DNA of 64,000 nucleotides from Gaiellales bacterium (GCA_003599855.1 QZKG01000064.1:1-64000); one strand, 5' to 3'. Positions 49,972-64,000 are shown, counted from the stretch's first letter. Program-made: numbers and translations. The notes: a model not told the origin generated them from the sequence alone.

Positions 49972-51948
49972 ATGATCTGGGCAAGAGGGATGAGCAACAA
50001 ACCGGCACACTTTACTTTTCTCGGGCTGCTCCTGCTCGTGGCCTTTTCAATATTGTGTGTGTATCCGTCTTCAGCACAAGCTTATGACAATGAAGAACTG
50101 GAATTCCTGACCCTCATCAACAACTATCGCGCCCAGAACGGTCTGCCCGCGCTGACGCTATCCACGTCACTATCCAATGCAGCTGAAGGCCACAGCTACG
50201 ACATGGCGGTCAGAAACTACTTCTCCCACACCAGCCAGGATGGCCGCAGCCCATGGGACCGGATCCGTGCCGCTGGATACGGTTATAACACATGGCTAGG
50301 GGAGAACATCGCCGCAGGCTACAGTACAGCCGCCACAGCTTTCGAGGCATGGCGTAACTCTCCCGGGCACAACGCGAATATGTTGAGCGGCAATTTCCGG
50401 GCTATCGGAATCGGCAGATACTACCAAGCCGGGTCCACTTATGGTTGGTATTGGACCACCGATTTCGGCGGAGTCTCTGAAGACAGTACGCCTCCCACCA
50501 TCAGCGTCCCGCCGCCGACGGGGGGCTCCTACGTCAGCGGTACGGTCATCATTTGGGCGAATGCTTACGACAATGTCGGCATCAACAAAGTGGATTTTTA
50601 CATCGACAACATCCTTGTCGGGACTGATACGACCTACCCCTTCACCTACAACTGGAACACGACAGGCTACGGCGCCGGGGCCCACACACTCAAGGCCGTC
50701 GTTACTGACACAGCTGGGTTCACAGCGGAGAGCACTTGCGCCGTCACGGTGGACAACTTCACGCCCTCCATGCGTTATTTCTTCACATGGTACGACCAGT
50801 CGAGCAGCCAGTGGCGCGACTGGGTACTGATGGCAAATCCTGCGGGCGGCGCTGGTACGGCCAGGGCCGCGGTAATGGTCGACTCCACGACTTATGCAGA
50901 CCGAAACATCGACGTTGGCGCGCCCGCCGAGACACCAGCCTTCAACGGCGTTATAGGCGGTCCCGTCACGGTCGCGACCACGCAACCACTTATCACGAGC
51001 CAGCGGGTGCTGTATAAGAACTCCTTCAACGAGATACCGGCCATCTGGGAAAACCAGCTGGAAAGCACATACTATTTCACGTGGTATGACTCGAACGCAT
51101 CCCAGGGCTGGAAGGGCGACTGGATCCTGATAGGCAACCAGGGATCCCAGACAGCGAACGTGGAAGTCTATATCGGAGGATCTTTGAAAGGTACCTACTC
51201 TATCCCTGTCGGCGGACGAGTAACCCCCTCATACTCGAACACGACGGACGGACCCGTCAAGGTGGTCTGCACCAATAACCAGCCATTGATCGTGAGCCAA
51301 CGTGTGCTCTACAAGGACTCTTTCAATGAAGTGCTGGGAGTCCCCGAGTCCAAGCTGGGAACCGAGTATAATTTCACATGGTACGACAGCAGGCGTGAAA
51401 ACAACATGAAAGGCAACTGGATCCTGGTCGGAAACATGGATTCCGAGCCAGCTCTCGTGGATATATACATCGGTGCGAACCATATGGGCAGGTATGACGT
51501 GCCAGCGGGCGGTCGGATAACTCCCCAATACCCTGGAGTCATGGATGGTCCGGTTAAAGTCGTCTCGGTCAACGGACAAAGGATCATCGCCAGCCAGCGG
51601 ATCCTTTATCAGAGCAGCTTCGAGGAATTCCAGGGCCTGACAGCCGCTGATACCGGCACTGACCTCTGGTTCACCTGGTACGATTCCAAGAGGGCCAACA
51701 ACATGAACGGCAACTGGATCCTGATAGCCAATCCCAGCCAGACTGACGCCGTGGTCGATATTTACATCAATGGCGGCCTAATGCAGCGGGTAGACGTTGC
51801 AGCTGGCGGGAATGTACCGTTGTCCTACCCGAATACCATCGGCGGACCGGTGAGGATTGTATCAACGAACAACATACCGCTGTTCGTCACCCAGCGAGTC
51901 GTGTACCGTGACAGCTTCAATGAGATCGGCGGCATGAAACTGCAATAA
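49972..51948 (+). CDS. Secreted CAP-domain protein with Ig-like domain and four ~99-residue repeats
   Basis: The 658-residue protein has a signal peptide (about 7-37, ending AQA). A CAP/SCP domain (about 40-165) follows, with HSYDMAVRNYFSHTS, GENIAAGY and SPGHNANMLSGNF. An Ig-like domain (about 172-262) is next. The C-terminal repeats begin near 267, 366, 466 and 565. Each starts FTWYD, has a W-x-L-(I/M)-x-N strand and ends with SQRVLY-x-x-SF-x-E. The repeats are probably beta modules for surface or matrix attachment. A start seven codons later also keeps the signal peptide. Confidence 0.9.
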   Translation: MIWARGMSNKPAHFTFLGLLLLVAFSILCVYPSSAQAYDNEELEFLTLINNYRAQNGLPALTLSTSLSNAAEGHSYDMAVRNYFSHTSQDGRSPWDRIRAAGYGYNTWLGENIAAGYSTAATAFEAWRNSPGHNANMLSGNFRAIGIGRYYQAGSTYGWYWTTDFGGVSEDSTPPTISVPPPTGGSYVSGTVIIWANAYDNVGINKVDFYIDNILVGTDTTYPFTYNWNTTGYGAGAHTLKAVVTDTAGFTAESTCAVTVDNFTPSMRYFFTWYDQSSSQWRDWVLMANPAGGAGTARAAVMVDSTTYADRNIDVGAPAETPAFNGVIGGPVTVATTQPLITSQRVLYKNSFNEIPAIWENQLESTYYFTWYDSNASQGWKGDWILIGNQGSQTANVEVYIGGSLKGTYSIPVGGRVTPSYSNTTDGPVKVVCTNNQPLIVSQRVLYKDSFNEVLGVPESKLGTEYNFTWYDSRRENNMKGNWILVGNMDSEPALVDIYIGANHMGRYDVPAGGRITPQYPGVMDGPVKVVSVNGQRIIASQRILYQSSFEEFQGLTAADTGTDLWFTWYDSKRANNMNGNWILIANPSQTDAVVDIYINGGLMQRVDVAAGGNVPLSYPNTIGGPVRIVSTNNIPLFVTQRVVYRDSFNEIGGMKLQ

Positions 51949-52069: not shown

Positions 52070-52223
52070 GAAGACCTGGTAGACCACCTGCTACGTTATT
52101 CAAACACTCTCAAAGACGACATTTTCCTTTTAAATAGCCTTAAACGGCACATGAAGAAGATCTCCGCTTAGTCTCTGAAACACTTCTTTCCCGCCTCAGT
52201 TAGTCCTCATTGATTTTCTCACA
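52070..52223 (+). repeat. Repeat unit 1
   Basis: Shares GACxTGGTAGACC through the 31-codon frame with units 2 and 3. Further on, TTAGTCCTCATTGATTTTCTCACA (52200-52223) matches unit 3 with one change. The 5' hairpin part seen in units 2 and 3 is missing. Confidence 0.85.
52076..52171 (+). pseudogene. 31-codon frame, copy without ATG
   Basis: Same reading frame as the copies at 53428 and 55122, ending in TAG, but the start codon is CTG (GACCTGGTAGAC instead of GACATGGTAGAC). The encoded residues are otherwise identical to unit 2, and differences from it are synonymous (GAC/GAT, GCT/GCC). It is either inactivated or translated from a weak CTG. Confidence 0.45.
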
Positions 52224-52258
52224 CCCTTCTGGATTGTCAATCCGTTTCACTTCCATTG

Positions 52259-52287
52259 TTGACATTTCGTACTACTTGTGTTATTAT
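52259..52287 (+). promoter_or_regulatory. Consensus promoter of the unknown gene pair
   Basis: TTGACA, 17 bases, TATTAT. It gives a leader of about 100 bases before the 52395 gene. Confidence 0.75.
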
Positions 52288-52394
52288 GAGTAATCCTCGC
52301 ACCTTCACATTCTCTAGGACCGTAATCTCTCCGTAGATATTGTGTGGATAGTTTCCGGTCTTAGAAAATCAATTGAATAAAGGAGTGATTAGCA

Positions 52395-52886
52395 ATGTCA
52401 TCAACCCTCGCAGCAAAAATGAGCCTCGATTGGCTTAATAATGAAGCAAGATGGAAAGTTGATGAAGCAATTACCACCCCCTGGAAGCTGCTTTTCGTTG
52501 TAAAGCAGTGCATGGATATCTGTGATGAGATCGGCGAATCCTATCGCGCTCGCTCTGTGATAGACCGCGGTCTCCACAGAGCACTGATATTGGTCAAATC
52601 ATTTGAAGATGCCTACAAAATTGCTGAACTCGGCAAGAGGTATCATGAGAATGACGAAGTTGGGGCCTTCAACCATGACGCCCGTTTTATGAATGTGGCA
52701 CTGAAAAAGGCCATCCAGCTGGCAACCTCGCACCAGGAAGCTGTCAAAGTGCACTCCTTCGCCGAGCCTATTCATTTCTCCGGAAATGGTGAAGTTTGTC
52801 GCTATGCGCTTTCGAAAGCCGCCTATCTTCGCAATGAAGAAGCAGTGCTAAATAGTCCTGCCTTCAAGAACTTCCTGAAGCAATAA
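52395..52886 (+). CDS. Unknown helical protein
   Basis: This 163-residue protein starts with a good ribosome site (AAAGGAGTGATTAGCA before the ATG). It is not recognised. It is predicted helical and seems to hold two related segments, RALILVKSFEDAYKIAELGK (about 68-87) and KKAIQLATSHQEAVKVHSFA (about 109-128), so a TPR-like helical repeat is possible. There is no signal peptide or membrane segment. It forms a two-gene unit with the next gene, with a promoter before and a terminator after. Confidence 0.75.
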   Translation: MSSTLAAKMSLDWLNNEARWKVDEAITTPWKLLFVVKQCMDICDEIGESYRARSVIDRGLHRALILVKSFEDAYKIAELGKRYHENDEVGAFNHDARFMNVALKKAIQLATSHQEAVKVHSFAEPIHFSGNGEVCRYALSKAAYLRNEEAVLNSPAFKNFLKQ

Positions 52887-52915
52887 CCCTCAATCCATTC
52901 AAGGAGGTGTAAGTA

Positions 52916-53284
52916 ATGTTACGATTCTTCATCACAAACATGGATGAAGCCCTAAAGGGAATCAAAAAACCCGAGGGCCAAAAGGCTGGGCTCAGAAGGG
53001 GCATAAAGGAAATAACCAGTGATTTACTCGGCGTGTTTATGGATCAGCAAGAGGTAATTTTCAGAGCAGAATCCGATCCGGAATACACCATGATCAATGT
53101 GGAAATTCACGTCATTCCGGAAAACTATAACGAGGTGGATCTCATACAGTTGCCCGGTCTGATCCAGCGAGCCATCTACCAAACATTCCGCGTCAGGGGT
53201 ATATCACAAGTCCCTGTCAAGGTTTACATTGTGAAGATGGTCTGCCACACAGATAGCAAAGCAAAACAGCCCTGCCCCGCCTAG
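52916..53284 (+). CDS. Unknown protein, partner of the preceding gene
   Basis: This 122-residue protein has AAGGAGGTGTAAGTA before the ATG, a very strong ribosome site. It is not recognised. The N-terminus is basic and helical (DEALKGIKKPEGQKAGLRRG). The second half alternates hydrophobic strands (INVEIHVIPENY, VPVKVYIVKMV), suggesting an alpha/beta fold. It ends with DSKAKQPCPA. It is 29 bases after the 163-residue gene, so they are likely translated together and could form a complex. Confidence 0.75.
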   Translation: MLRFFITNMDEALKGIKKPEGQKAGLRRGIKEITSDLLGVFMDQQEVIFRAESDPEYTMINVEIHVIPENYNEVDLIQLPGLIQRAIYQTFRVRGISQVPVKVYIVKMVCHTDSKAKQPCPA

Positions 53285-53307
53285 GGGGAAAAATCAGAAC
53301 TTTATAA

Positions 53308-53342
53308 AGAGCCGACGTTCGAATCGTCGGCTTTAACTTTTG
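53308..53342 (+). terminator. Terminator of the unknown gene pair
   Basis: AGCCGACG / CGTCGGCT with a seven-base loop, followed by TTAACTTTT. It sits 25 bases after the stop. Confidence 0.8.
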
Positions 53343-53523
53343 TGCTTAATGTTTAGCGTCCTGTCCGGGGTGTACGATATTAAAATAAAATTATGCCTAC
53401 ATATAGGCATAATATCAAGTGGTTGACATGGTAGACCACCTGCTACGTTATTCAAACACTCTCAAAGACGATATTTTCCTTTTAAATAGCCTTAAACGGC
53501 ACATGAAGAAGATCTCCGCCTAG
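53337..53523 (+). repeat. Repeat unit 2 with hairpin
   Basis: A 187-base unit about 90 percent identical to unit 3. From 5' to 3': TTTTGTGCTTAATGTT, GTCCTGTCCGGGGTGTACGA, a perfect 10-base inverted repeat ATTATGCCTA CATA TAGGCATAAT (53390-53413), ATATCAAGTGGTTGAC, then the 31-codon frame. Similarity stops at the frame's stop codon, where the beta-lactamase-fold cargo begins. Confidence 0.9.
53428..53523 (+). CDS. 31-residue repeated peptide, copy 2
   Basis: ATG to TAG, 31 codons. It is positively charged at the C-terminus (KRHMKK) with an amphipathic-looking middle (LKDDIFLLNSL). Against the other two copies nearly all differences are at third positions or conservative, which argues for selection on the peptide. 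No ribosome site of the AGGAG type precedes the ATG. Function unknown. Confidence 0.5.
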   Translation: MVDHLLRYSNTLKDDIFLLNSLKRHMKKISA

Positions 53524-53553
53524 CCCTCAAAAGGGCAGTAAACAAACTCACTC

Positions 53554-54948
53554 TTAATTATCCCGTAATTTCTCCATAACCGAGTCAAAAGGGTCATAAG
53601 GCATCGCGCCAATGTGGATTCTCTTAATTTTACCCTTCTGATCAAACTGGTAGCTGATCTTTTCACCGATATAACCGTATTCGCTGCCTGATAATATTTC
53701 AAATTCATTTTCACTAATCTGTTTCAGTCTATAAGGCTTTGTTAGTGGTCTATTCCCTTCAAGATAGAAAGCAACTAACTCTTGATTTATCTTCCTAATA
53801 TCTACCTCTACTGCATGCATGGTAAATCTGCCCGTGTATTTATTGATATTTGACACCTTGTTTTCTTGATAATCATCATATTTTTCTACGATATGATTTA
53901 GGAAGTGAAACATTGTATCGGCGAGTTCTGCGGCCATTCCGTCCCACGAGTTCGTCAGTACAATCACCCCAAGCTGATTTTTATTTTCCCATGAGATTTG
54001 TGTAATAAAACCAGGGAAGCCTCCACTGTGACCTATGACTTTAGCGTCATCAACCTTCCAAATGCCACAACCAAGACCTCGTTTTATTTCATCGTCGTCA
54101 GTGATCCATTGGACACGTTGCATTTCTTTTTTACTTTCTCGATCTATCAACTTGTCGTTATCAAGAAACTGTGCGGCGATATATTTACATAAGTCTTCAG
54201 TATTTGAGTAAAAGCCTGTCGCGGGACTCATTGCATGGGTTTTTACATGGGGATATTCTTCTCTTTGTTTTCCTGGAATGTATCTACCGTGTCCGGTTGC
54301 CATTCTTGAGGCATTGCTTCTATCGTAATCCGGACCTGTATTTTTCAGGCCAAGTGGCTTAATGATATTTACCTCAACATATTCTTTATAAGTAATACCC
54401 GTTACTTTCTCTATCAACTGCCCGAGGACACTTGGTCCAAAATTGGAATATTTAAATTTCTCATTATTCGGATAAGGGTTTTTAGTATCGTGAATCTGTT
54501 CAATCAGCTGATCCTTATTTAGAAAATCTTCTTCTAGTATCCAAAAACCATTTTTTATTCCATCACGGCGCATTCCTGATGTGTGTGTAAGTAGTTGCCT
54601 GACTGTAATTCTTTCAATGCTCTTGTCGTTCTTTGAAACAAGCCATTCCAAATAATCTGAAGCTCTATCGTCTAATCTAAGCTTGCCCTTCTCAACCAAT
54701 TGTAGAATAGATATTGCTGTGAATGTCTTGGAGATTGAAGCGATGCGAAATGCTTCATCTTTGTTGAGTTGTTTCCCAGTACTCAAATTCGAAAAGCCAT
54801 AGGCCTTATTGAAGACGATTTCGTCCTTATGTACTACGGCGGCTGCGATACCTGGCACTGTTCCCATTATCTTTGTATATTCGAGCCAGCTATCAATGAT
54901 CGCTATTGCATCTTGAATTCTTGGCTTAAGATCAATTGTTTTAGACAT
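53554..54948 (-). CDS. Serine beta-lactamase-fold hydrolase (class C / esterase-like)
   Basis: The 464-residue protein has the family triad SISK (Ser-x-x-Lys, about 75-78, in RIASISKTF), YSN (FKYSNFG) and the HSGG motif in place of KTG. A C-terminal lipocalin-like extension (about 370-464) is present. No signal peptide is seen, so it would act in the cytoplasm as an esterase or peptidase; resistance to antibiotics should not be assumed. It sits as cargo between repeat units 2 and 3. Confidence 0.85.
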   Translation of the reverse strand: MSKTIDLKPRIQDAIAIIDSWLEYTKIMGTVPGIAAAVVHKDEIVFNKAYGFSNLSTGKQLNKDEAFRIASISKTFTAISILQLVEKGKLRLDDRASDYLEWLVSKNDKSIERITVRQLLTHTSGMRRDGIKNGFWILEEDFLNKDQLIEQIHDTKNPYPNNEKFKYSNFGPSVLGQLIEKVTGITYKEYVEVNIIKPLGLKNTGPDYDRSNASRMATGHGRYIPGKQREEYPHVKTHAMSPATGFYSNTEDLCKYIAAQFLDNDKLIDRESKKEMQRVQWITDDDEIKRGLGCGIWKVDDAKVIGHSGGFPGFITQISWENKNQLGVIVLTNSWDGMAAELADTMFHFLNHIVEKYDDYQENKVSNINKYTGRFTMHAVEVDIRKINQELVAFYLEGNRPLTKPYRLKQISENEFEILSGSEYGYIGEKISYQFDQKGKIKRIHIGAMPYDPFDSVMEKLRDN

Positions 54949-54954
54949 ACAAAC

Positions 54955-54982
54955 AATTTAACACGAATATGCCATTAGTCAA
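54955..54982 (-). promoter_or_regulatory. Promoter of the beta-lactamase-fold gene, probably leaderless
   Basis: On the minus strand TTGACT, 16 bases, TAAATT. Only six bases separate the -10 from the ATG at 54948, so the RNA should begin at the start codon. No ribosome site is present. Confidence 0.55.
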
Positions 54983-54996
54983 TTACTATTGGAAAT

Positions 54997-55019
54997 AAAA
55001 AATGCCCTGAGGGGCAATT
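54997..55019. terminator. Small terminator hairpin before unit 3
   Basis: TGCCC / GGGCA around a short loop with six T on the minus strand. It would stop minus-strand RNA coming from the DUF5677-like gene before the beta-lactamase-fold promoter. Confidence 0.55.
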
Positions 55020-55031
55020 TTAGAAAACATA

Positions 55032-55267
55032 TTTTGTGCTTAATGTTCAATGTCCTGTCCGGGGTGTACGATATTAAAACAAAATTATGCCTATAATAAG
55101 GCATAATATCAAGTGGTTGACATGGTAGACCACCTGCTACGCTATTCAAACACTCTCAAAGACGATATTTTCCTTTTAAATAGCCTTAAACGACACATGA
55201 AGAAGCTCTCCGCGTAGCTTCCCAATCTCCCTTTCCACCAACATTAGTCCTCATTCATTTTCTCACA
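55032..55267 (+). repeat. Repeat unit 3 with hairpin
   Basis: Same order as unit 2: TTTTGTGCTTAATGTT, GTCCTGTCCGGGGTGTACGA, an inverted repeat ATTATGCCT / AGGCATAAT (55084-55107), ATATCAAGTGGTTGAC and the 31-codon frame. The loop differs (ATAATA), while the stem is kept. The 3' extension to 55267 matches unit 1. Confidence 0.9.
55122..55217 (+). CDS. 31-residue repeated peptide, copy 3
   Basis: ATG to TAG, 31 codons. It differs from copy 2 by three synonymous changes (CGT/CGC, CGG/CGA, GCC/GCG) and one Ile-to-Leu change. It has the same upstream hairpin and the same lack of a ribosome site. Function unknown. Confidence 0.5.
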   Translation: MVDHLLRYSNTLKDDIFLLNSLKRHMKKLSA

Positions 55268-55346
55268 GCCAGCATTACAGTCAAGATATTTCTTTCTTTT
55301 GTTTTTTATGAAGTGCCCTTTATTGGTATCTACCAGGTAATTTAAT

Positions 55347-56219
55347 TTAACCCTTGTCGCCGTATTCGATTTGATTGAAGCGCGAGGCTGCCTTATTAAG
55401 TTCTTCATTCAGCCAGCGGTACCTCTCGTCAATATGGGTGATATAAGCCGTTTCCTCTTGACAGGCTTTGAGCAAGTAAAGAAGTCGAATTTTTGCGAAC
55501 ACACATACATCGGAAACGATTCTTGCCGAGTGCCCGAGTTTAACAGCCATCTGCCTTTCGGCGTCTCTGGTACATCGCTCCCAAACCATTCCAACACCAT
55601 CACCGTCTTTATGAATTAAGTGACTACTCGACCCATATCCATAGGCAGCCGAATGGATAAACAACTTAAGGTCGTCACGGCCACTCATGAATAGTTCCTT
55701 TATGATTCCCGAGAATGACCACTTCTGTTCGAGAATAGATCGCTGTTTTCGACTGAAATCTTGCTTCATATCAGCTTTCTCATCTTCTGTAAGAACTAGG
55801 TCGCGCAAGGACTTCCATTCCAAACTTTTCGGTTCTGGAACTTCCGCAAGAAATCGCTCCACCCTGTCACTCGTTTTCATTGAAGAAAAACCAGGCAGGG
55901 TCTCCCAATATTCAGCTACTTTCTGCCTTAGCTCATGCGGTTCTCCTTGCATCATGTAAACATACTTGAGCGTTCCCTCCATTACAGAGCGGTTTAGGAG
56001 ATCTGCATCCCACTCCTTGCCTTCTCCAATAAGTAGCAAAACGCTCTCGCTCGTAAATTGGCAATCAACGAATAACTGCGCATTTACGAACCTGACATAC
56101 GGATCCAGGCCCTTATAGTCACTATCAATGAATGGTCTTGCATGATCAAAACAGTCCCCAACCAGGTGACTTGCTGCGCTAGACCATGTCGAGCAGAGTT
56201 TTAATATTTCGCTGGTCAT
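55347..56219 (-). CDS. DUF5677-like helical protein
   Basis: The 290-residue protein is all helical by appearance. It has SESVLLLIGEGKEWDADLLNRSVMEG (about 57-82) and a C-terminal HSAAYGYGSSSHLIHKDGDG, which resemble DUF5677 proteins often found near defence genes. There is no membrane segment. It is cargo after repeat unit 3 and lies in the same direction as the restriction-modification operon, but a strong terminator separates them. The family assignment is from memory of the pattern and is moderate. Confidence 0.65.
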   Translation of the reverse strand: MTSEILKLCSTWSSAASHLVGDCFDHARPFIDSDYKGLDPYVRFVNAQLFVDCQFTSESVLLLIGEGKEWDADLLNRSVMEGTLKYVYMMQGEPHELRQKVAEYWETLPGFSSMKTSDRVERFLAEVPEPKSLEWKSLRDLVLTEDEKADMKQDFSRKQRSILEQKWSFSGIIKELFMSGRDDLKLFIHSAAYGYGSSSHLIHKDGDGVGMVWERCTRDAERQMAVKLGHSARIVSDVCVFAKIRLLYLLKACQEETAYITHIDERYRWLNEELNKAASRFNQIEYGDKG

Positions 56220-56347
56220 AAAATACCTAACGTTGTTGCAGATTGTAAAATACTACTTTTCTCTGGAAAAAATACAACCAAAGGATGATTAAAACAGCCT
56301 TTTGTTTTGATAGTTTCTGAGAACCCCATTGTCACTGGTTCCTATGC

Positions 56348-56376
56348 AAAAAAGACCGCCCTAGGCGGTCTTTTTT
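56348..56376. terminator. Bidirectional terminator of the restriction-modification operon
   Basis: AAAAAAGACCGCC CTA GGCGGTCTTTTTT, a perfect 13-base stem with T-runs on both strands, 24 bases after the ATPase stop. Confidence 0.92.
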
Positions 56377-56399
56377 CATGGCTACCTACCGTACTTTCT

Positions 56400-58052
56400 T
56401 CAAGACAACAAACTATTTATTCTTCCTTTAATATTTTCATAAACCGATGACAATTTTTGTTTTGCCTCGTCGGTTAATAGAGCCGTATGCGCAAGAGCGT
56501 CCCTAATTGGCTTGTATTCATTTGCATCCCTGACAAGAGAGGCCTCCTTATTACGATCCTTTCTCTTTTCATCAACATTTAGGTTCGCAAGATAATTCAT
56601 TGATAAATAATGGAGGTCGGTACTACCTTTTCTAATATCTATACTAATATTGCCTACACCTTTACTTCGTTTTTCCTCATTTTTCCATTTATCAACCTCG
56701 GCCTTTGCCTCAGGCGAAATTGGGACTTTCTTTTCTTGGAGATATTTCCTAATTAAATTTTCTGAAATAAAACATTCGGCATAGGAAGCTAAGTTATACT
56801 CCGCGTCGTCGCTCAGTTCATCAATCCAACCATCCACTTTCTTCTTGTTTCCTGTTTTTGGCGGCGGAGAATATTCTCCAGATACAACGTCGTAGAGTTC
56901 TTTGGATTTCCTAGCCTTCGGCGTGATCGCTGTATTATCCGGATCGCCATCTTCTCTGTTTTTTCTTCTCCATTTGTCCCAATCATCAATTACGACACTC
57001 ATGATCTTCTTCAAGTTTTCCAAAAACTCCTGAAATTTTGGATCATCCGCAACAATTCCTTCTCTGCTACTAGTAAATCTATCTACTTCACCATCAAAGG
57101 TATCGTAATGAATCTGCCCGTATAAATAATTTTCGACCAGCCTAGCCGACGGAATATGCTTCAAAATATCTTTCTCTCGCAACCTTCCGTTTACGAAAAG
57201 ATCCACGCTTACTCTTTCGTCCACGGCAATAACTTTAAGATCCCTTGGTTTTCCAACTGAAGCAATAAACCCCTTAAAATCTCCATCTGCACTTAGAGCC
57301 TTTTGTTCCTTAAGATTCTTGAGATGTTCCTGAATATATGGATCTTTGTGATCATTAATATTCCAAAGAAACTCAGTTTTTTCCGCGAGATCGTTTAAGT
57401 GGTCAAGTGTTATCTTTTCATCTTCAAGATAAATATTGAATGAGTCATCTAAGAGGGAAAACCTAAAATATAATGCGAGCATTTTCTTCAAATAATCTAA
57501 ACTATTTTTTATTCCCTCATGAAAATCCTTAAAATAGATGATTGTTCCGCTGTTGTGATTGTTTGTATATTCCTTAAAGAGGCCTTCGTCCCATTCACCC
57601 AATGCGTACTTATCGGGGGTTAGGTCGTTCGTAATGGCTTCGTCTAACCCAGAATTATCAATAACACCTCCCACATAAAGATTGCCTTTCGATTTTGATA
57701 TTACGGTTATTTCTTTTGCGCATGAAAGCATCGCCAGCTTGCCGATACCCTTCCGGCCAATGAACGGACGCCCCTTCTTTGAAGACAAAACACCACTTTT
57801 TCTTTTTGAATATCCAATCTTCAAAAATTTGTTTTGAAAATCTTCCTTCGTCATGCCAATACCATCGTCTTTAATGACGAGAGTATTTTTCTCCTTATTG
57901 ATGTATATCCATACGTTCTCTGCGTCAGCATCCCAGGAATTAGATATCGCTTCTCCAAGAACGGTTACAAAACTTCGATACAGGTTCCTGCCCAAGTGAT
58001 TCAAGACACTCAAGGATATTTCAAATGAAAATGTGTCGTTCTTATTTTTCAT
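56400..58052 (-). CDS. GHKL ATPase of the MutL/MORC/Hsp90 type
   Basis: The 550-residue protein has the Bergerat ATP fold: N box GEAISNSWDADAENV (about 33-47), G1 DDGIGM (about 62-67) and G2 GRKGIGKLAM (about 100-109). A second alpha/beta domain and a long charged C-terminal region follow. Stand-alone ATPases of this kind occur with cytosine methyltransferases, Vsr-like nucleases and endonucleases in MORC-type restriction systems. Its ATG overlaps the methyltransferase stop by 11 bases. It probably senses or clamps DNA and licences cutting; that is inference. Confidence 0.85.
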   Translation of the reverse strand: MKNKNDTFSFEISLSVLNHLGRNLYRSFVTVLGEAISNSWDADAENVWIYINKEKNTLVIKDDGIGMTKEDFQNKFLKIGYSKRKSGVLSSKKGRPFIGRKGIGKLAMLSCAKEITVISKSKGNLYVGGVIDNSGLDEAITNDLTPDKYALGEWDEGLFKEYTNNHNSGTIIYFKDFHEGIKNSLDYLKKMLALYFRFSLLDDSFNIYLEDEKITLDHLNDLAEKTEFLWNINDHKDPYIQEHLKNLKEQKALSADGDFKGFIASVGKPRDLKVIAVDERVSVDLFVNGRLREKDILKHIPSARLVENYLYGQIHYDTFDGEVDRFTSSREGIVADDPKFQEFLENLKKIMSVVIDDWDKWRRKNREDGDPDNTAITPKARKSKELYDVVSGEYSPPPKTGNKKKVDGWIDELSDDAEYNLASYAECFISENLIRKYLQEKKVPISPEAKAEVDKWKNEEKRSKGVGNISIDIRKGSTDLHYLSMNYLANLNVDEKRKDRNKEASLVRDANEYKPIRDALAHTALLTDEAKQKLSSVYENIKGRINSLLS

Positions 58053-59088
58053 AACAATTTTCTACGTGTTTATTGATAGCTTTACCTATTACAAAACCTA
58101 ATCGCGGTGGGACAGCATTTCCGATCTGCGTCCCAATTCTTGAAAGCGAGATATATTGGCCGAAGTCGTAAGATTTCGGGAACGTTTGTAGCAAAGCCCC
58201 TTCTCTAATGGATAAACCCCGGTCTTGCTCTGGATGGCCGAATCTCCCTGAACCATAATTGTAAAATTGAGTTGTGATTGTGGGAGAAACATTATCCCAG
58301 CTCATTCTCCCGTAAACAGAAGTATAGGTTTTGCCACTTTCTCGCTTATAGCAAGGAGGTAGCAATTTTTTATCCCAGTCTTTCCAGGTTCCTTTGGGTT
58401 TTGAGTTCCTTATTCTCTCAAGGTTTAGAGCAGAAAGATTTTTTGACCTATGGACGTCATCCTTCGGGCATATTTGCCCAGATCCTATTTTGGGTAGTTT
58501 CTTTATCGTTTTCGCAACGGTGACGTATTTGTTTCTTGTGTGGGTTATTTCGGGCATCTCGATTTTCCCTATTTTTGAGGCGAGGAAAACGAGCCTGCTT
58601 CGATTCTGCGGGATACCATAATCGGGGCAATAAACAACATCGTATTTAATGTCGTAATCCATCTTCTCAATTTCCTCGACGAAAGTTTTGAAAACATCCG
58701 TCTTGGTTATGCCCCTCACATTCTCCATGGAAATGATGTCCGGCTTGATGGTTTCTATTGCCTTGATGAAATACTTGATCAAATTCCATCTTTCGTCTTT
58801 TCTTTTGTTTCTTGTTTTAAAGGTATGGGAAGAGAAGGGCTGACATGGAGCACATCCAACCAAGACTTTGATACTATTTTTTGAATACAGCCTTTTTATT
58901 TTTTCAAAATCGAAATCCGCAACATCCGCCAAAATGAATTTAGCATCGTTGTTTTTCTCGTAGGAATAGGAGCACGTTACATCATTATCAAGTCCAGCCA
59001 GAACATCTATTCCGGCCTTTCTAAGGCCATAGGTCAAACCACCAATTCCACAGAACAAATCTACTGCTTCAATTTTCGTATTTTTCAT
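58042..59088 (-). CDS. DNA cytosine-5 methyltransferase 1
   Basis: This 348-residue C5 methyltransferase has motif I DLFCGIGGLTYGL, motif IV GCAPCQPFSSH with the catalytic Cys, motif VI ENVRG, motif VIII QNRSRLVFLA and motif X GTQIGNAVPPRLG. The target-recognition region (about 185-270) is short, so it probably recognises a short site. It has little similarity to the second methyltransferase outside the motifs. The start is 19 bases after the stop of methyltransferase 2. Confidence 0.93.
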   Translation of the reverse strand: MKNTKIEAVDLFCGIGGLTYGLRKAGIDVLAGLDNDVTCSYSYEKNNDAKFILADVADFDFEKIKRLYSKNSIKVLVGCAPCQPFSSHTFKTRNKRKDERWNLIKYFIKAIETIKPDIISMENVRGITKTDVFKTFVEEIEKMDYDIKYDVVYCPDYGIPQNRSRLVFLASKIGKIEMPEITHTRNKYVTVAKTIKKLPKIGSGQICPKDDVHRSKNLSALNLERIRNSKPKGTWKDWDKKLLPPCYKRESGKTYTSVYGRMSWDNVSPTITTQFYNYGSGRFGHPEQDRGLSIREGALLQTFPKSYDFGQYISLSRIGTQIGNAVPPRLGFVIGKAINKHVENCYEK

Positions 59089-59107
59089 AATCAGTTCATT
59101 TCTCTAA

Positions 59108-60280
59108 TTAAAATAATGCCGGTTGAGGCTTTTTGATATTGGCATTACGGAAGTCACTCAGAAACTCTTTGTGGGAAGTCCTGTTATATCTTGAGGTCTT
59201 TTGTGCCGAGGCCTTTTTCTGCGTTCTTTTTTTATGATTCACAATCGCGGTACCCGCCATCAACCCAAGCCCTACGGGTACGGCATTACCAATCTGTTTA
59301 TAAATATCAGTCAATTTCCCTGAGAACTTCCAGTCATCCGGGAACATCTGTATTCGGGCATACTCTTGGATGCTAAGGGGCCTCATTAGTTCTGGATGGG
59401 CCAGTAGTGTCGCGGGCATAGTCGGATGAGTCACAAGCGTAGGGGACGGCTTATCCCAAGATAGGCGTCGATAAAAACCTGTCTTTCCACCTCCAAGCAA
59501 GAAGGATTTGCCCATGGCCTCTTCTTGCAAATGCTCAGGTAAATGCTTCCAATACTGCCCGGCTTTTAGGAGTGAGAGGTATTCAGTCTGCTTCTTGCCC
59601 AATGGCAGGTAGTCGTGCTTGATGCTTTGAATGTCGCCGATGGCATCCCGTACTGTTTTTAGATTGAGGGCAGTTGTGGGCTGAGGTATTTCAATCTCTT
59701 CGTCCCCCAAAGTCCCAAAAATGATAACCCTTTCCCTCCTTTGGGGCACACCATAAAGAGAGGCATCAAACAAGCTAAACGATATTTTATAGCCCAACTT
59801 TTTGAACTCTTCCGTAAGAAACCAGATCACGCTTCCCGGGGTGTCCTCCACAGAAGAATAATCACCATATTCGGGAGGGGTGTTGGCCAGTTTTGCGGAC
59901 AACAGACCTCTAACGTTTTCGAGAATAAAATACTTGGGTTTGATCTCGCTTATGAATTCCAAGTATCGAATTATCAAGTTTCCCCTAAAATCATCAAGGC
60001 TCCTTCGTCTTCCTGCAGTACTGAAGGCTTGGCAGGGAGGGCCTCCCGCGACTAAGTCAACGCTACCTGATACTAAACCGAGATCCTTCAGCACATCCTG
60101 GGGATCAACACTTGAGATGTCGTTGTATAGCTTGACTGCTGGACGGTTGTTCGTAATCGTTTCAATGCAATGTTTGTCATTTTCGACGCACGCTAGGACG
60201 TCAAATCCGGCTTTCTCAAGGCCGAGGTCAAGGCCCATAGCACCGGAGAATAAGGAGATGGCTTTTAGTTTTTTTCTCAT
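59108..60280 (-). CDS. DNA cytosine-5 methyltransferase 2
   Basis: This 390-residue C5 methyltransferase has motif I LFSGAMGLDLGLEKAGF, motif IV GGPPCQAFSTAGRRRS, motif VI ENVRG, motif VIII QRRERVIIFG and motif X YKQIGNAVPVGLG. The C-terminus has an extra basic tail (about 350-390). Its ATG overlaps the stop of the endonuclease gene by one base (TAATG). The likely pair is endonuclease plus this methyltransferase. Confidence 0.93.
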   Translation of the reverse strand: MRKKLKAISLFSGAMGLDLGLEKAGFDVLACVENDKHCIETITNNRPAVKLYNDISSVDPQDVLKDLGLVSGSVDLVAGGPPCQAFSTAGRRRSLDDFRGNLIIRYLEFISEIKPKYFILENVRGLLSAKLANTPPEYGDYSSVEDTPGSVIWFLTEEFKKLGYKISFSLFDASLYGVPQRRERVIIFGTLGDEEIEIPQPTTALNLKTVRDAIGDIQSIKHDYLPLGKKQTEYLSLLKAGQYWKHLPEHLQEEAMGKSFLLGGGKTGFYRRLSWDKPSPTLVTHPTMPATLLAHPELMRPLSIQEYARIQMFPDDWKFSGKLTDIYKQIGNAVPVGLGLMAGTAIVNHKKRTQKKASAQKTSRYNRTSHKEFLSDFRNANIKKPQPALF

Positions 60281-61272
60281 TAGATGTAGTTCTCCAACAT
60301 GTCATCAATGGAACCGTCAGTTGACCTGGCTTCCCACTGTTCTTCTAGCTCAACTATCTTGCTCTCAATGAGGTCAATAAAACTCTCTGAAAGAATCCCG
60401 GCTGAAGAGGCTTCCAATAGTTCAAATAGGGTTTTGTGGTAATCTTCCCGCTCGCTTATGAAATCCCAAAATTCTCGGCCGATCTTCATTTTTGTGTCTG
60501 CATCATTCAGGTTTGCCGTTATTTGGTTTGAAATTCTGTCGCGAGTGCCGTAAGTCATTCCGAGAATACCTTGGGCATTTGGTCTTTGCTGTTCAATTCT
60601 TGCAATAGCATTGTTTAAGCTAGTCACCATTCCTACGTTCATGGTGTTAGGGCCACTCTTTACCTGAATGTAATAATCCGTGCCACCAATCGTCTTGATG
60701 AGATCAAAATTGGTACCAGTCTGGCCCTCAATTGCAACGTCATTGTCTTTGCAGCCAGAGTATTTAGCAAGGCTTTCAACTGCGTTACCCCAAGATGTGA
60801 CCACCGATCGTGTCACTGTCTGATAAACATTGAATGCAATTACTTTTCGGGGAGTATCGAGCGTGAGGGCTTTAGCTAGTAAGGGGTTAATATCGAAGTT
60901 ATCCAGGGACAACGCTTGAACCATTTTAGCCTGTTCTTGGAGAAATTTACGTCCCAGGTAAAATACCCAAGTCTCCTCAATCAATCTATCCCTGGGTATT
61001 GGATCCTTTGCTTCTAATAGGGCATCTATTTGACCGTCGCGCAGTAAATTCGCCCCGGATGATTTCTTTATTCTCGAAAAACGCTCTTTGTCTGCGTTCA
61101 AAAATGCTTGAAGGTCATGCTCAAAATCTACGGCAATTGCGCCCGCTGTTGCCCTTCCAATACCATCGACGTTCATGCAAACAACAGCCATGAACTGTTC
61201 AATGTTTTCTTCCTTGCCTTCGATGAGGTTTTCATCGGGGACATTGAAGCCGTTTAGTCTTGGGTCGGGCAT
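60280..61272 (-). CDS. PmeII-like type II restriction endonuclease
   Basis: The 330-residue protein has a PD-(D/E)xK-type core: NFDLIKTIGG followed by YYIQVKSGPNTMNVG (about 205-228), where the acidic residue of E-x-K is Gln. This region resembles PmeII-family enzymes. AAGGAG lies just before the ATG. It lies between the Vsr-like gene and methyltransferase 2 and overlaps the latter by one base, the close coupling expected of a restriction pair. The recognition site cannot be read. Confidence 0.78.
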   Translation of the reverse strand: MPDPRLNGFNVPDENLIEGKEENIEQFMAVVCMNVDGIGRATAGAIAVDFEHDLQAFLNADKERFSRIKKSSGANLLRDGQIDALLEAKDPIPRDRLIEETWVFYLGRKFLQEQAKMVQALSLDNFDINPLLAKALTLDTPRKVIAFNVYQTVTRSVVTSWGNAVESLAKYSGCKDNDVAIEGQTGTNFDLIKTIGGTDYYIQVKSGPNTMNVGMVTSLNNAIARIEQQRPNAQGILGMTYGTRDRISNQITANLNDADTKMKIGREFWDFISEREDYHKTLFELLEASSAGILSESFIDLIESKIVELEEQWEARSTDGSIDDMLENYI

Positions 61273-61384
61273 ATTCTCCTTTTCTTTTTACTATTCGACG
61301 TGATTACAAACTATACTCCCGCTTGGCCATTCCCTTCTTCTCTAATATACCGCAAAATATCATTTGATAGAATAATATTTTTTG

Positions 61385-61822
61385 TTATAGTCTTCGCGAT
61401 ACGAGAGCATTTTTTACTTTCTCAATACAGACTTCAAGCTCTTTGTTGATCTCCTTATCCGAGAATCTAAGCACGAGCCATCCCTCTTTAGTTAGCTCCT
61501 CATTTACGCTTATATCTCTGGCGATGTTTCTTTCAATCTTGCGAATCCAAAATTCACGATTGGTCTTAATCTGCTTCTTCTTGTCTGGCCAATCCAATCC
61601 GTGCCAGAACGTACTGTCACAGAATACAGCCACCTTCGGACGTATAAACGCAATATCTGGTGTGCCCTTACACCCACGATAATTCTTTCTATAACGGAAG
61701 CCCTCTGCCCAAAGTGCCTTCCTAAGCCTCAACTCTATCGACGTGTCCTGCCCCCGAATACGCGACATTGTGTAGCTAACAACGCTTTTGTCTCTCTTTT
61801 TCTGTTCCTTCTGTCTGTTCAT
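61385..61822 (-). CDS. Vsr-like endonuclease
   Basis: The 145-residue protein keeps the Vsr start MSRIRGQDTSIELRLRKALW, the catalytic Asp in GTPDIAF and the core VFCDSTFWHG, then FWIRKIERNIARD. Classical Vsr (very-short-patch repair of T:G at Dcm sites) has zinc-binding Cys and His here; two are replaced (Thr and Trp in STFWHGLDW). This variant often travels with C5 methyltransferases. It is the first gene of the operon, 112 bases before the endonuclease gene. Confidence 0.88.
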   Translation of the reverse strand: MNRQKEQKKRDKSVVSYTMSRIRGQDTSIELRLRKALWAEGFRYRKNYRGCKGTPDIAFIRPKVAVFCDSTFWHGLDWPDKKKQIKTNREFWIRKIERNIARDISVNEELTKEGWLVLRFSDKEINKELEVCIEKVKNALVSRRL

Positions 61823-61829
61823 TTTGACA

Positions 61830-61844
61830 ACTAGTACACCTAGT
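61830..61844. promoter_or_regulatory. Palindrome at the head of the restriction-modification operon
   Basis: ACTAG TACAC CTAGT, immediately upstream of the vsr-like start. It has the size of a controller-protein or methyltransferase autoregulation operator. Confidence 0.35.
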
Positions 61845-61976
61845 GATAAATTTCCGGCTGGCTGATTAAGACGATTATTTTAGTCCGTTATGAACCAGTC
61901 GAGACTATGATATCTCTTTCAGCCCAAAAGCTCATCTATTTGCTTCATCCGTATTCTCCTGACTGAAAGGCAGGCA

Positions 61977-62522
61977 ATGGCTGGATTATTTGTAATCGTT
62001 CTCATTGGCTTTGGAATTGCAACTTTGATCAGATTAAGCGGTCGTCCGAAAGAAGAGGACGTGCTTGAGAGATGGAGCGCCTTATTGCCTGGACAGGCGA
62101 TTTCGGGGGGAGAATTTCTTTTACAGTTGGAACAGGAACTTACTGAGCGCAACCCAGAGTTCAAGCAAAGCCAAATGGACTTTATGGGTAAATTGGGCGC
62201 AAAGGGCGGGGAAGCAATCAAGGTTTCACACGATATGGTTCACTCATGCTTTATCGGATACGAAGTAGTGGGTAAAGATCTTCACTTGAATTATGCTCTG
62301 CACCTGAAAAAAAGCGTCCTCTATGCAGTACCCCTTTTCGGCTGGGTTCTCGCTCATATGCTTAACGTCGTTTATCTGCATGAGAGAAATAAATTGATTG
62401 CCTTTTCTGCCGTCACGCTTGATTGCGTCAGAAAAGTTACTGATAACCTGAGCGATGAGCTGGGACTGAGTCGGGATGACGTGAAAATTAAAGCAGCTAG
62501 TGGTGTGCTCGGCCCGCTTTAG
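61977..62522 (+). CDS. Unknown membrane-associated protein
   Basis: The 181-residue protein has an N-terminal hydrophobic helix (about 2-20, GLFVIVLIGFGIATLI). A second hydrophobic stretch lies near 115-130 (SVLYAVPLFGWVLAHML). The remainder is mixed helical. It is not recognised. It begins 154 bases from the divergent restriction-modification operon and overlaps the stop of the convergent ATPase gene by four bases. A conjugation-accessory role is only suggested by that neighbour. Confidence 0.65.
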   Translation: MAGLFVIVLIGFGIATLIRLSGRPKEEDVLERWSALLPGQAISGGEFLLQLEQELTERNPEFKQSQMDFMGKLGAKGGEAIKVSHDMVHSCFIGYEVVGKDLHLNYALHLKKSVLYAVPLFGWVLAHMLNVVYLHERNKLIAFSAVTLDCVRKVTDNLSDELGLSRDDVKIKAASGVLGPL

Positions 62523-63892
62523 AGAAGGTAGCTCCCTGGCTCGGGCTCATCCGTCTCGACGGCTGGCATTACCTGAAAAGTAATCACCTCGTCCAACCTT
62601 TTCAGGCTGAGGGTATAGCCAGCCTCAATATTTGTTTCTCTTAGAGTTGCTTGATTTTGCTCAAGTCGCCAGCTGGTTTCTAAATCAAAAGTTCTAAACA
62701 TCGTGGGCTCTTTGCCCTTCGTTTTTAGAACGGCGACCTGAGTCGGCATACCTGTTAGCTCGCCTATGCCTTCTTCCCATTGTTCGTCCTTTGAGAAGTA
62801 GGTAATCGAGCTTTCTGTTTTCAGCTTCCAGTCAAACGGGTCATAGTCCTTGATGTATTTGATGATTAGCTCTCCGTCCTGCCGGTCGCACCTGAAAATA
62901 ATGAAGTTCTTGGCATTGCCAAGGATGATGTCTCTCAATTCGTCGCTTAGCTGAACGAGGCTTTGATGGGCAAGAATTAGCGAAAGACCGTATTTTCTCG
63001 CCTCACTCATAATCTCGGCAAAACTCAAAGTCGCATAGTTCTGAAATTCATCCACGTACAAATAAAATGGCTTTCTTTCATGGGGCTTTAGTTCGACCCT
63101 CGACATAGCCGCCATCTGTATTTTAGCCACAAACAAAGCTCCCAAGAGAAAGCTGTTTGTTCGCAAAACACCCTTCGCCAGATTTATGAGAACTGTTTTT
63201 TCTTCGTCCATGATCTTCCTGAAATCAATTGTTGATTTCTTGGCAGAAAGCATCAGCCGGATTCTTGGATCAGAAGTAAAAGAAGAAACCTTATTTAGAG
63301 TGGATTCAACATTTGAAACGCGGTCTTTGGGCTCCCATTGATCGAACCTTTTGCGCCAAAAGGAAGCCACCGCTTCATAAGTCACGTATTTCAGTTTGTC
63401 TTCTCTGAATTGCTCGTCAGTCAGGAGCGGTTCGATGTCCAGCATCGTGCCGCCTGCTTCAATCAAAGTTAGGACGGCATTTCTCAGAATCTCAATGAGT
63501 CTCGGCGTCTTGTCTTCAGATAAATTCCAAATCTTTCTAAACACCTCAACAAGCTCCAAAGCTTGGGTGTAAGGATCTACTCCTTCCTGCTGTTCGAGAG
63601 GATTGAAACCAACGATGTTTTCAGGGTCGGTCATCTCGACCAGGACAACTCGTTGAAAGTTATCGATATTTTCCACGATGTCATTCACAAGGTCACCGTG
63701 GGGGTCGATTACTCCACAACCCCGACCATTTCTTATATCTTCCAAAATCCAAGTAGCAAGCCCTTTGGACTTACCAACTCCCGAGCTACCGAGAACATAG
63801 ACGTGCGTCGATCTGTCCTCTTCAGGTAAATAAAAGCCGGCAGGGTTGCCAGCGTCGTCAAATGTTAGACCGAGTTTAAGGACTGAATTCAT
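62519..63892 (-). CDS. VirD4/TraD-like conjugation coupling ATPase
   Basis: This 457-residue P-loop ATPase of the HerA/FtsK group has Walker A GSSGVGKSK (about 34-42), DPHGDLV, the long helical insertion, Walker B FYLYVDEFQNY and the arginine-bearing LAHQSL strand. No transmembrane anchor is seen at the N-terminus, unlike classical VirD4. Such proteins couple a relaxase-DNA complex to a type IV secretion channel, so an integrative or conjugative element is likely. TATAAT at 63901-63906 is only eight bases before the ATG, so a leaderless message is possible. Confidence 0.85.
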   Translation of the reverse strand: MNSVLKLGLTFDDAGNPAGFYLPEEDRSTHVYVLGSSGVGKSKGLATWILEDIRNGRGCGVIDPHGDLVNDIVENIDNFQRVVLVEMTDPENIVGFNPLEQQEGVDPYTQALELVEVFRKIWNLSEDKTPRLIEILRNAVLTLIEAGGTMLDIEPLLTDEQFREDKLKYVTYEAVASFWRKRFDQWEPKDRVSNVESTLNKVSSFTSDPRIRLMLSAKKSTIDFRKIMDEEKTVLINLAKGVLRTNSFLLGALFVAKIQMAAMSRVELKPHERKPFYLYVDEFQNYATLSFAEIMSEARKYGLSLILAHQSLVQLSDELRDIILGNAKNFIIFRCDRQDGELIIKYIKDYDPFDWKLKTESSITYFSKDEQWEEGIGELTGMPTQVAVLKTKGKEPTMFRTFDLETSWRLEQNQATLRETNIEAGYTLSLKRLDEVITFQVMPAVETDEPEPGSYLL

Positions 63893-63910
63893 GGTATTGA
63901 ATTATATCAA

Positions 63911-63940
63911 AGAGAAAAGAACGACCTTGTGGGGCCGTCC
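63911..63940 (-). terminator. Terminator upstream of the coupling ATPase
   Basis: On the minus strand GGACGGCC / GGTCGTTC (two wobbles) is followed by TTTTCTCTTTG. It would end a minus-strand gene that lies to the right of the window. Confidence 0.55.
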
Positions 63941-64000
63941 TTTAAAATGCGTGGTTGGTCGTGCGAGGTTCATTATCCGTAAGCATGCCACCTGGGGCGG

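Follow-up and report, generated by a model that had tools for sequence, protein, structure and literature searches.

Integrase genes that are split by integration are already known from SSV, from phage Mx8 and from the streptococcal rumA ICEs. The rumA ICEs, in the excerpted account of Ambroset et al. (2016; PMC4701971), use a single serine integrase whose gene contains the att site, so that its 3' end is swapped and the integrated and excised forms differ in their C terminus. Their target is a protein gene, which is disrupted, and no description of tandem arrays of orphan gene tails or of recombinase-less cassettes was found for them in that excerpted account. The archaeal SSV-type suicidal integrases (PMC8371274) also have attP within the integrase gene, which is partitioned, often at tRNA genes, but they belong to the tyrosine family and the split separates an N-terminal piece from the catalytic C-terminal piece. 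The gene of phage Mx8 IntP, as cited in PMC4701971 and PMC4383910, extends across attP and has its C terminus replaced (112 amino acids by 13); there, however, the enzyme is a tyrosine integrase and a single prophage is involved. In the integration-dependent immunity of mycobacteriophage BPs (PMC9262239), attP lies inside a gene, the target is a tRNA and a C-terminal segment is removed, although in that case it is the repressor gene that is split, the segment lost is a degron, and the phage uses a tyrosine integrase. With regard to targets, the Islander paper (2014, PMC4383910) held that serine integrases at tRNA genes were not known, tRNA and tmRNA targets being those of tyrosine integrases, and no later report of serine integrases at tRNA genes was found in the open-licence literature.

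The locus described here lies in a stretch of 64,000 nucleotides from a Gaiellales bacterium (GCA_003599855.1 QZKG01000064.1:1-64000), referred to as a whole as the window, in which three dispersed repeats carry the same 31-codon frame. This frame is almost certainly the terminal piece of a gene for a large serine recombinase (LSR), whose ORF spans attP and is cut when the element integrates at a tRNA-Met 3' end. As in the rumA ICEs, att lies inside a serine integrase gene, but the targets of the clade are tRNA and tmRNA 3' ends and the severed tails accumulate in tandem arrays together with recombinase-less cassettes. In comparison with the SSV type, the recombinase loses only about 30 C-terminal codons and retains its catalytic domain. 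Each repeat is the edge of one inserted element within a row of elements, which has the following features:

49972-51948, plus strand: gene of a CAP-domain protein, the host flank of the integration site; in ten relatives an antisense tRNA-Met with an empty attB comes after the orthologous gene.
52076-52171, plus strand: unit 1, orphan LSR C-terminal tail LVDHLLRYSNTLKDDIFLLNSLKRHMKKISA and stop, right half only (codon-level alignment).
52077-52082, plus strand: TGGTAG core at the left array end, junction of host flank and element end (NTGGTAG/CGGGGGC in relatives, TGGTAG/ACCACC in the window).
52097-52105, plus strand: right arm of the attP inverted repeat in unit 1, TATTCAAAC (codons YSN), pairing with GTTTGAATA at the end of the recombinase gene.
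52395-52886, plus strand: element 1 cargo, 163-aa ORF without Pfam, NCBIfam or PADLOC match.
52916-53284, plus strand: element 1 cargo, 122-aa ORF without Pfam, NCBIfam or PADLOC match.
53338-53427, plus strand: left end (LH) of element 1, GTCCTGTCCGGGGTGTACGATATT block and hairpin, conserved in other arrays.
53391-53412, plus strand: hairpin TTATGCCTA-CATA-TAGGCATAA; relatives keep the stem while the sequence differs.
53428-53523, plus strand: unit 2, orphan LSR tail ending in KRHMKKISA and stop (codon-level alignment).
53429-53434, plus strand: TGGTAG core at the element 1/2 junction (sequence comparison of units).
53554-54948, minus strand: element 2 cargo, serine beta-lactamase-fold protein (PF00144, E 4.5e-63).
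55032-55121, plus strand: left end (LH) of element 2 with a hairpin at 55085-55106 (repeat comparison, alignment of units).
55122-55217, plus strand: unit 3, tail ending in KRHMKKLSA and stop, which apparently belongs to the recombinase found at the opposite end of element 3 (in-frame join to the LSR on contig C21, perfect 9-bp inverted repeat, N29).
55123-55128, plus strand: TGGTAG core at the element 2/3 junction (sequence comparison of units).
55218-64000, no strand: element 3, running on to the contig end at 67697 (profile matches of cargo).

The repeat units span 52073-52171, 53330-53530 and 55032-55218, and no other copies of strong similarity were found in the genome (2.35 Mb, 77 contigs). 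An IS or MITE terminal repeat was considered and rejected, as there is no right terminal repeat to match and only three copies exist. The preliminary description had pointed to a shared 31-codon frame with a coding-type substitution pattern, and a codon-by-codon check agrees with it. Units 2 and 3 differ in four codons (CGT/CGC, CGG/CGA, ATC/CTC and GCC/GCG), three of the changes being synonymous and one Ile/Leu, and units 1 and 2 differ past the start codon only in GAC/GAT and GCT/GCC. The inverted repeat said to keep its stem while the loop varies was recovered in both units, as TTATGCCTA-CATA-TAGGCATAA in unit 2 and TTATGCCT-ATAATA-AGGCATAA in unit 3. In unit 1 the entire left half is missing, and with it the hairpin; the frame there opens with CTG and the sequence 5' of it is unrelated. 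A long in-frame N-terminal extension of unit 1 was seen in G007 only and is not conserved. Whole-unit DNA folding gave weak z-scores (-0.3 to -2.0), leaving a folded single-strand site unsupported.

That the frame evolves as coding sequence also holds beyond the window. Among 16 aligned copies from nine genomes, extra states are concentrated at third codon positions (49, vs 24 at first and 22 at second positions; column permutation p = 5e-5), and pN/pS is 0.41 over codons 2-26 of these copies; for the six copies that make up the window's own group it is 0.21. Genomes with clear tail copies all belong to the same family as the window's host, and the public contigs bearing the nearest relatives of the recombinase bear the label Thermoleophilia bacterium.

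The parent recombinase is a protein of 504 amino acids on contig C21, with matches to PF00239 (Resolvase, 1.1e-35), PF07508 (Recombinase, 3.1e-14) and PF13408 (Zn-ribbon, 7.4e-11) and with a catalytic serine, S10 in a YLRVS context, that is invariant in 18 homologues. It directly abuts the tRNA-Met of this genome (C21, 39374-39471) and ends in FDPGLNKED/LVAGAGFEPATFGL and stop. In ten relatives, the empty site consists of the CAP gene followed by an antisense second tRNA-Met, with the sequence NTGGTAG/CGGGGGCAGG (beginning CGGGGGC), and at the equivalent point the window reads NTGGTAG/ACCACC instead of the tRNA-Met 3' end. The gene beyond the C21 tRNA-Met is a homologue of the gene that follows the tRNA-Met in the relatives, and because this matches their gene order, C6 and C21 are taken as the two flanks of one locus with the array between them. 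The array being split over two contigs, the pairing of unit 3 with the C21 recombinase is proposed from flank synteny and the match of the two sequences.

The LSR frame enters the core as L/M-V, in the phase of the first two codons of the peptide, and fusing the C21 LSR to unit 3 at TGGTAG yields one open ORF ending in LLFDPGLNKEDLVDHLLRYSNTLKDDIFLLNSLKRHMKKLSA and stop. The same join rebuilds a short attP, GTTTGAATA-N29-TATTCAAAC, in which two half-sites forming a perfect 9-bp inverted repeat surround a small core common with attB, as expected of an LSR. The attP overlaps tail codons 1-10. Eight attP sites were rebuilt from the window join and seven other elements; the spacing is N29 in seven and N28 in one, and 6 to 9 of the 9 arm bases are paired in the seven other elements. 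Three of these reconstructions (G000, G011 and G002) each join pieces of two contigs. The arms mostly covary by subfamily, with GTTTGAATA/TATTCAAAC in the window group and a GTTCGA-type arm with TATTCGAAC in most others, G002 (GTTTGAATA/TATTCGAAC) being an exception. The cores include TGGTAG, TGGTGGAG, CGAGAGC and CTGGTCGG. Furthermore, an uninterrupted homologue exists on G373:C29, where a single ORF ending in SSNKWIKVLLTGHYSNLPDLRFRGGNS and stop contains GTTCGAATA-N29-TATTCGAAC, with no tRNA nearby. This recombinase was the sole exact match to the DNA pattern of an intact attP in 397 genomes of the phylum; in viral contigs the pattern occurred in four stretches, none inside a recombinase. 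The LSR query found no relative in viral contigs, and its relatives in phage and plasmid records were all less than 60% identical and not informative.

These observations suggest the following course of events. In the circular, excised element, the LSR ORF would run through attP, the right half-site of which is itself coding (YSN = TAT TCA AAC). The recombinase would join attP to the tRNA-Met 3' end at the core TGGTAG, and integration would cut the ORF about 30 codons before its end. The catalytic part would stay beside the tRNA and gain a C terminus from the antisense tRNA (NKED-LVAGAGFEPATFGL and stop), while the severed tail (LVDHLLRYSN..KKLSA and stop) would be left at the opposite border of the element. 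Successive insertions at one tRNA, some of them by elements without a recombinase, would then build up a tandem array to which each element contributes one orphan tail. The split, the in-frame rejoining, the empty site, the common core, the attP inverted repeat and the recurrence of the arrangement can be read directly from the sequence; the recombinase is probably active, and exchange of its C terminus may alter this activity.

The cassette-like layout with different cargo behind each copy, proposed earlier, is borne out, the copies being carried by mobile elements. Element 3 encodes a DUF5677-like protein, a GHKL-type restriction enzyme, two C5 DNA methylases, a Vsr-type nuclease and a VirD4/TraG-type coupling protein. 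The restriction enzyme, the methylases and the nuclease, together with a 330-aa protein without assigned family, form a type II restriction-modification set at 56400-61822. Elements 1 and 2 have no recombinase gene, and would have been acquired via a recombinase acting in trans or have lost their own. Their hairpin-type left ends match the LSR-type attP left half of the window group poorly. The left ends of recombinase-less elements (53338-53427 and 55032-55121; L021, L024, L060, L061 and L064) share GTTCGAGTCCYG..GGGGTTTACGATATT; their block GTTCGAGTCC resembles the T-arm of tRNA-Met in inverted orientation and is followed by GGGGTTTACGATATT and the hairpin, in which the stem is kept while the sequence changes. 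Past the stop codon of the tail, units 1 and 3 have a further conserved block, TTAGTCCTCATTCATTTTCTCACA (52183-52226 and 55227-55270), which is also present in relatives (L023 and L028).

Arrays in related genomes follow one grammar. The first unit consists of the right half only (TGGTAG core and peptide), inner units of left half and right half, and the last boundary of a left half only, next to which comes TGGTAGCGGTGG, a tRNA-Met 3' end in reverse complement; in several genomes the 3' end of the LSR ORF, not a left half, abuts that tRNA-Met. Elements with both ends on a single contig were found at a tmRNA (18.8 kb), a tRNA-Gly (6.9 kb) and a tRNA-Pro (11.5 kb), each with the core present, the tail in frame and no assembly gap. 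The LSR clade is present in 32 of the 397 genomes of the phylum, at most of the inspected loci a tRNA or tmRNA gene converges on the 3' end of the LSR gene, and the targets comprise the 3' ends of tRNA-Met, -Glu, -Gly, -Pro, -Val, -Ile, -Arg and -Ala and of tmRNA. Of the 21 loci with such a convergent gene, 20 have an LSR frame that runs through the tRNA 3' end without a stop (5/21 and 4/21 for the remaining two frames); the exception, L195, has no intact crossing. The statement of PMC4383910 on serine integrases is thus contradicted for this clade. No recognisable tail was found within 20 kb at several LSR loci.

Several further observations concern individual loci. A sister tail type, MVEAVQRYSNSEVNILSRLERVMKQVSA (L194 on G005:C7, L066 on G007:C10 and L067 on G002:C47), belongs to a tmRNA-targeting LSR. 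Elements with a tyrosine integrase at L091 (G010:C53) and L092 (G017:C255) appear to use the same tRNA-Met 3' end, and two unrelated integrase families may compete for this one site. At L062 (G017:C220:15946-16035), a truncated glycosyltransferase gene and a tail meet at GACCAGG, which may reflect insertion at a secondary site.

The coding-like frame, together with an NTG start in nearly all copies and some GAGG-like sequences upstream, could also be taken for a free-standing small protein of a mobile element, of toxin, immunity or regulatory type, with its own start behind the hairpin. This is very improbable, since the NTG is accounted for by the recombination core (TGG from the CCA end of the tRNA), in each array the first copy has unrelated sequence in place of the hairpin region, so that no start signal of its own is kept in all copies, and homologous tails are fused to recombinases in one ORF. 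Of the roles offered in the preliminary description, location on a mobile element and membership of a recombination unit thus stand, while a free-standing small protein, a toxin or an immunity peptide gives way to the C-terminal tail of an LSR; a transposase gene fragment, which that description would have counted against itself, comes close in spirit to the recombinase gene fragment that the frame appears to be. Like integrons, the arrays have tandem cassettes with varied cargo, related ones bear HigBA and ParDE-type toxin-antitoxin pairs, and each inner site has a hairpin, but a reading of the units as attC sites served by an IntI tyrosine integrase is extremely improbable. In an alignment of 21 units, the GTTRRRY box is not conserved (CGTTATTC, CGGTATTC and CGCTATTC vary) and there is no attC consensus; C6 and C21 have no PF00589 match and no IntI, such matches in G000 sitting on other contigs, and what lies at the array end is a serine recombinase beside the 3' end of a tRNA.

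Within the preferred reading of the frame as a severed recombinase C terminus, two accounts of the tail itself can be weighed. Its loss might be a regulatory switch, in which integration is the work of the full-length recombinase, while the form with the exchanged tail has a changed activity or stability, so that the element stays fixed until a complete copy is supplied in trans; we regard this as conceivable, at somewhat less than even chance. It is in keeping with the coding constraint on the tail beyond the codons that overlap attP (pN/pS of 0.42 for codons 11-26), with the lower activity of the Mx8 integrase after a similar swap, as cited in PMC4701971, and with the shedding of a C-terminal degron upon integration by BPs-type phages (PMC9262239). 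Conversely, the natural tail is predicted to be disordered and its sequence differs among subfamilies. In the structure model of a natural full-length homologue the tail has pLDDT below 50, such that a structural role is not readable from the model. The other account, which we likewise place a little short of an even bet, is that only the first ten codons matter, as the attP half-site, and that the remainder is functionless and coding by inertia. The variable tail lengths (20-33 aa) and end sequences would fit this, but codons 11-26 favour synonymous change and the K-D/E-E-I-LLN-LKRH pattern is retained across many tail copies.

The clade is aimed at the 3' ends of tRNAs and tmRNA, a target class formerly reserved for tyrosine integrases (PMC4383910). 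Database copies of these LSRs have antisense-tRNA C termini (such as ..GFEPATFGL), which are artefacts of the integrated state and hide the native tail, and the native C terminus would be required for use of the enzymes as genome-integration tools. Orphan tails can also serve as a marker when searching for element ends. More speculatively, and rather unlikely on present evidence, the arrays may represent a serine-recombinase cassette system at tRNA genes, in which a recombinase acting in trans adds recombinase-less cassettes with defence and toxin-antitoxin cargo one behind another, and in which the lost tail amounts to a built-in lock against excision. Orphan tails offer a direct test of whether serine recombinases set direction via a change in their own C terminus.
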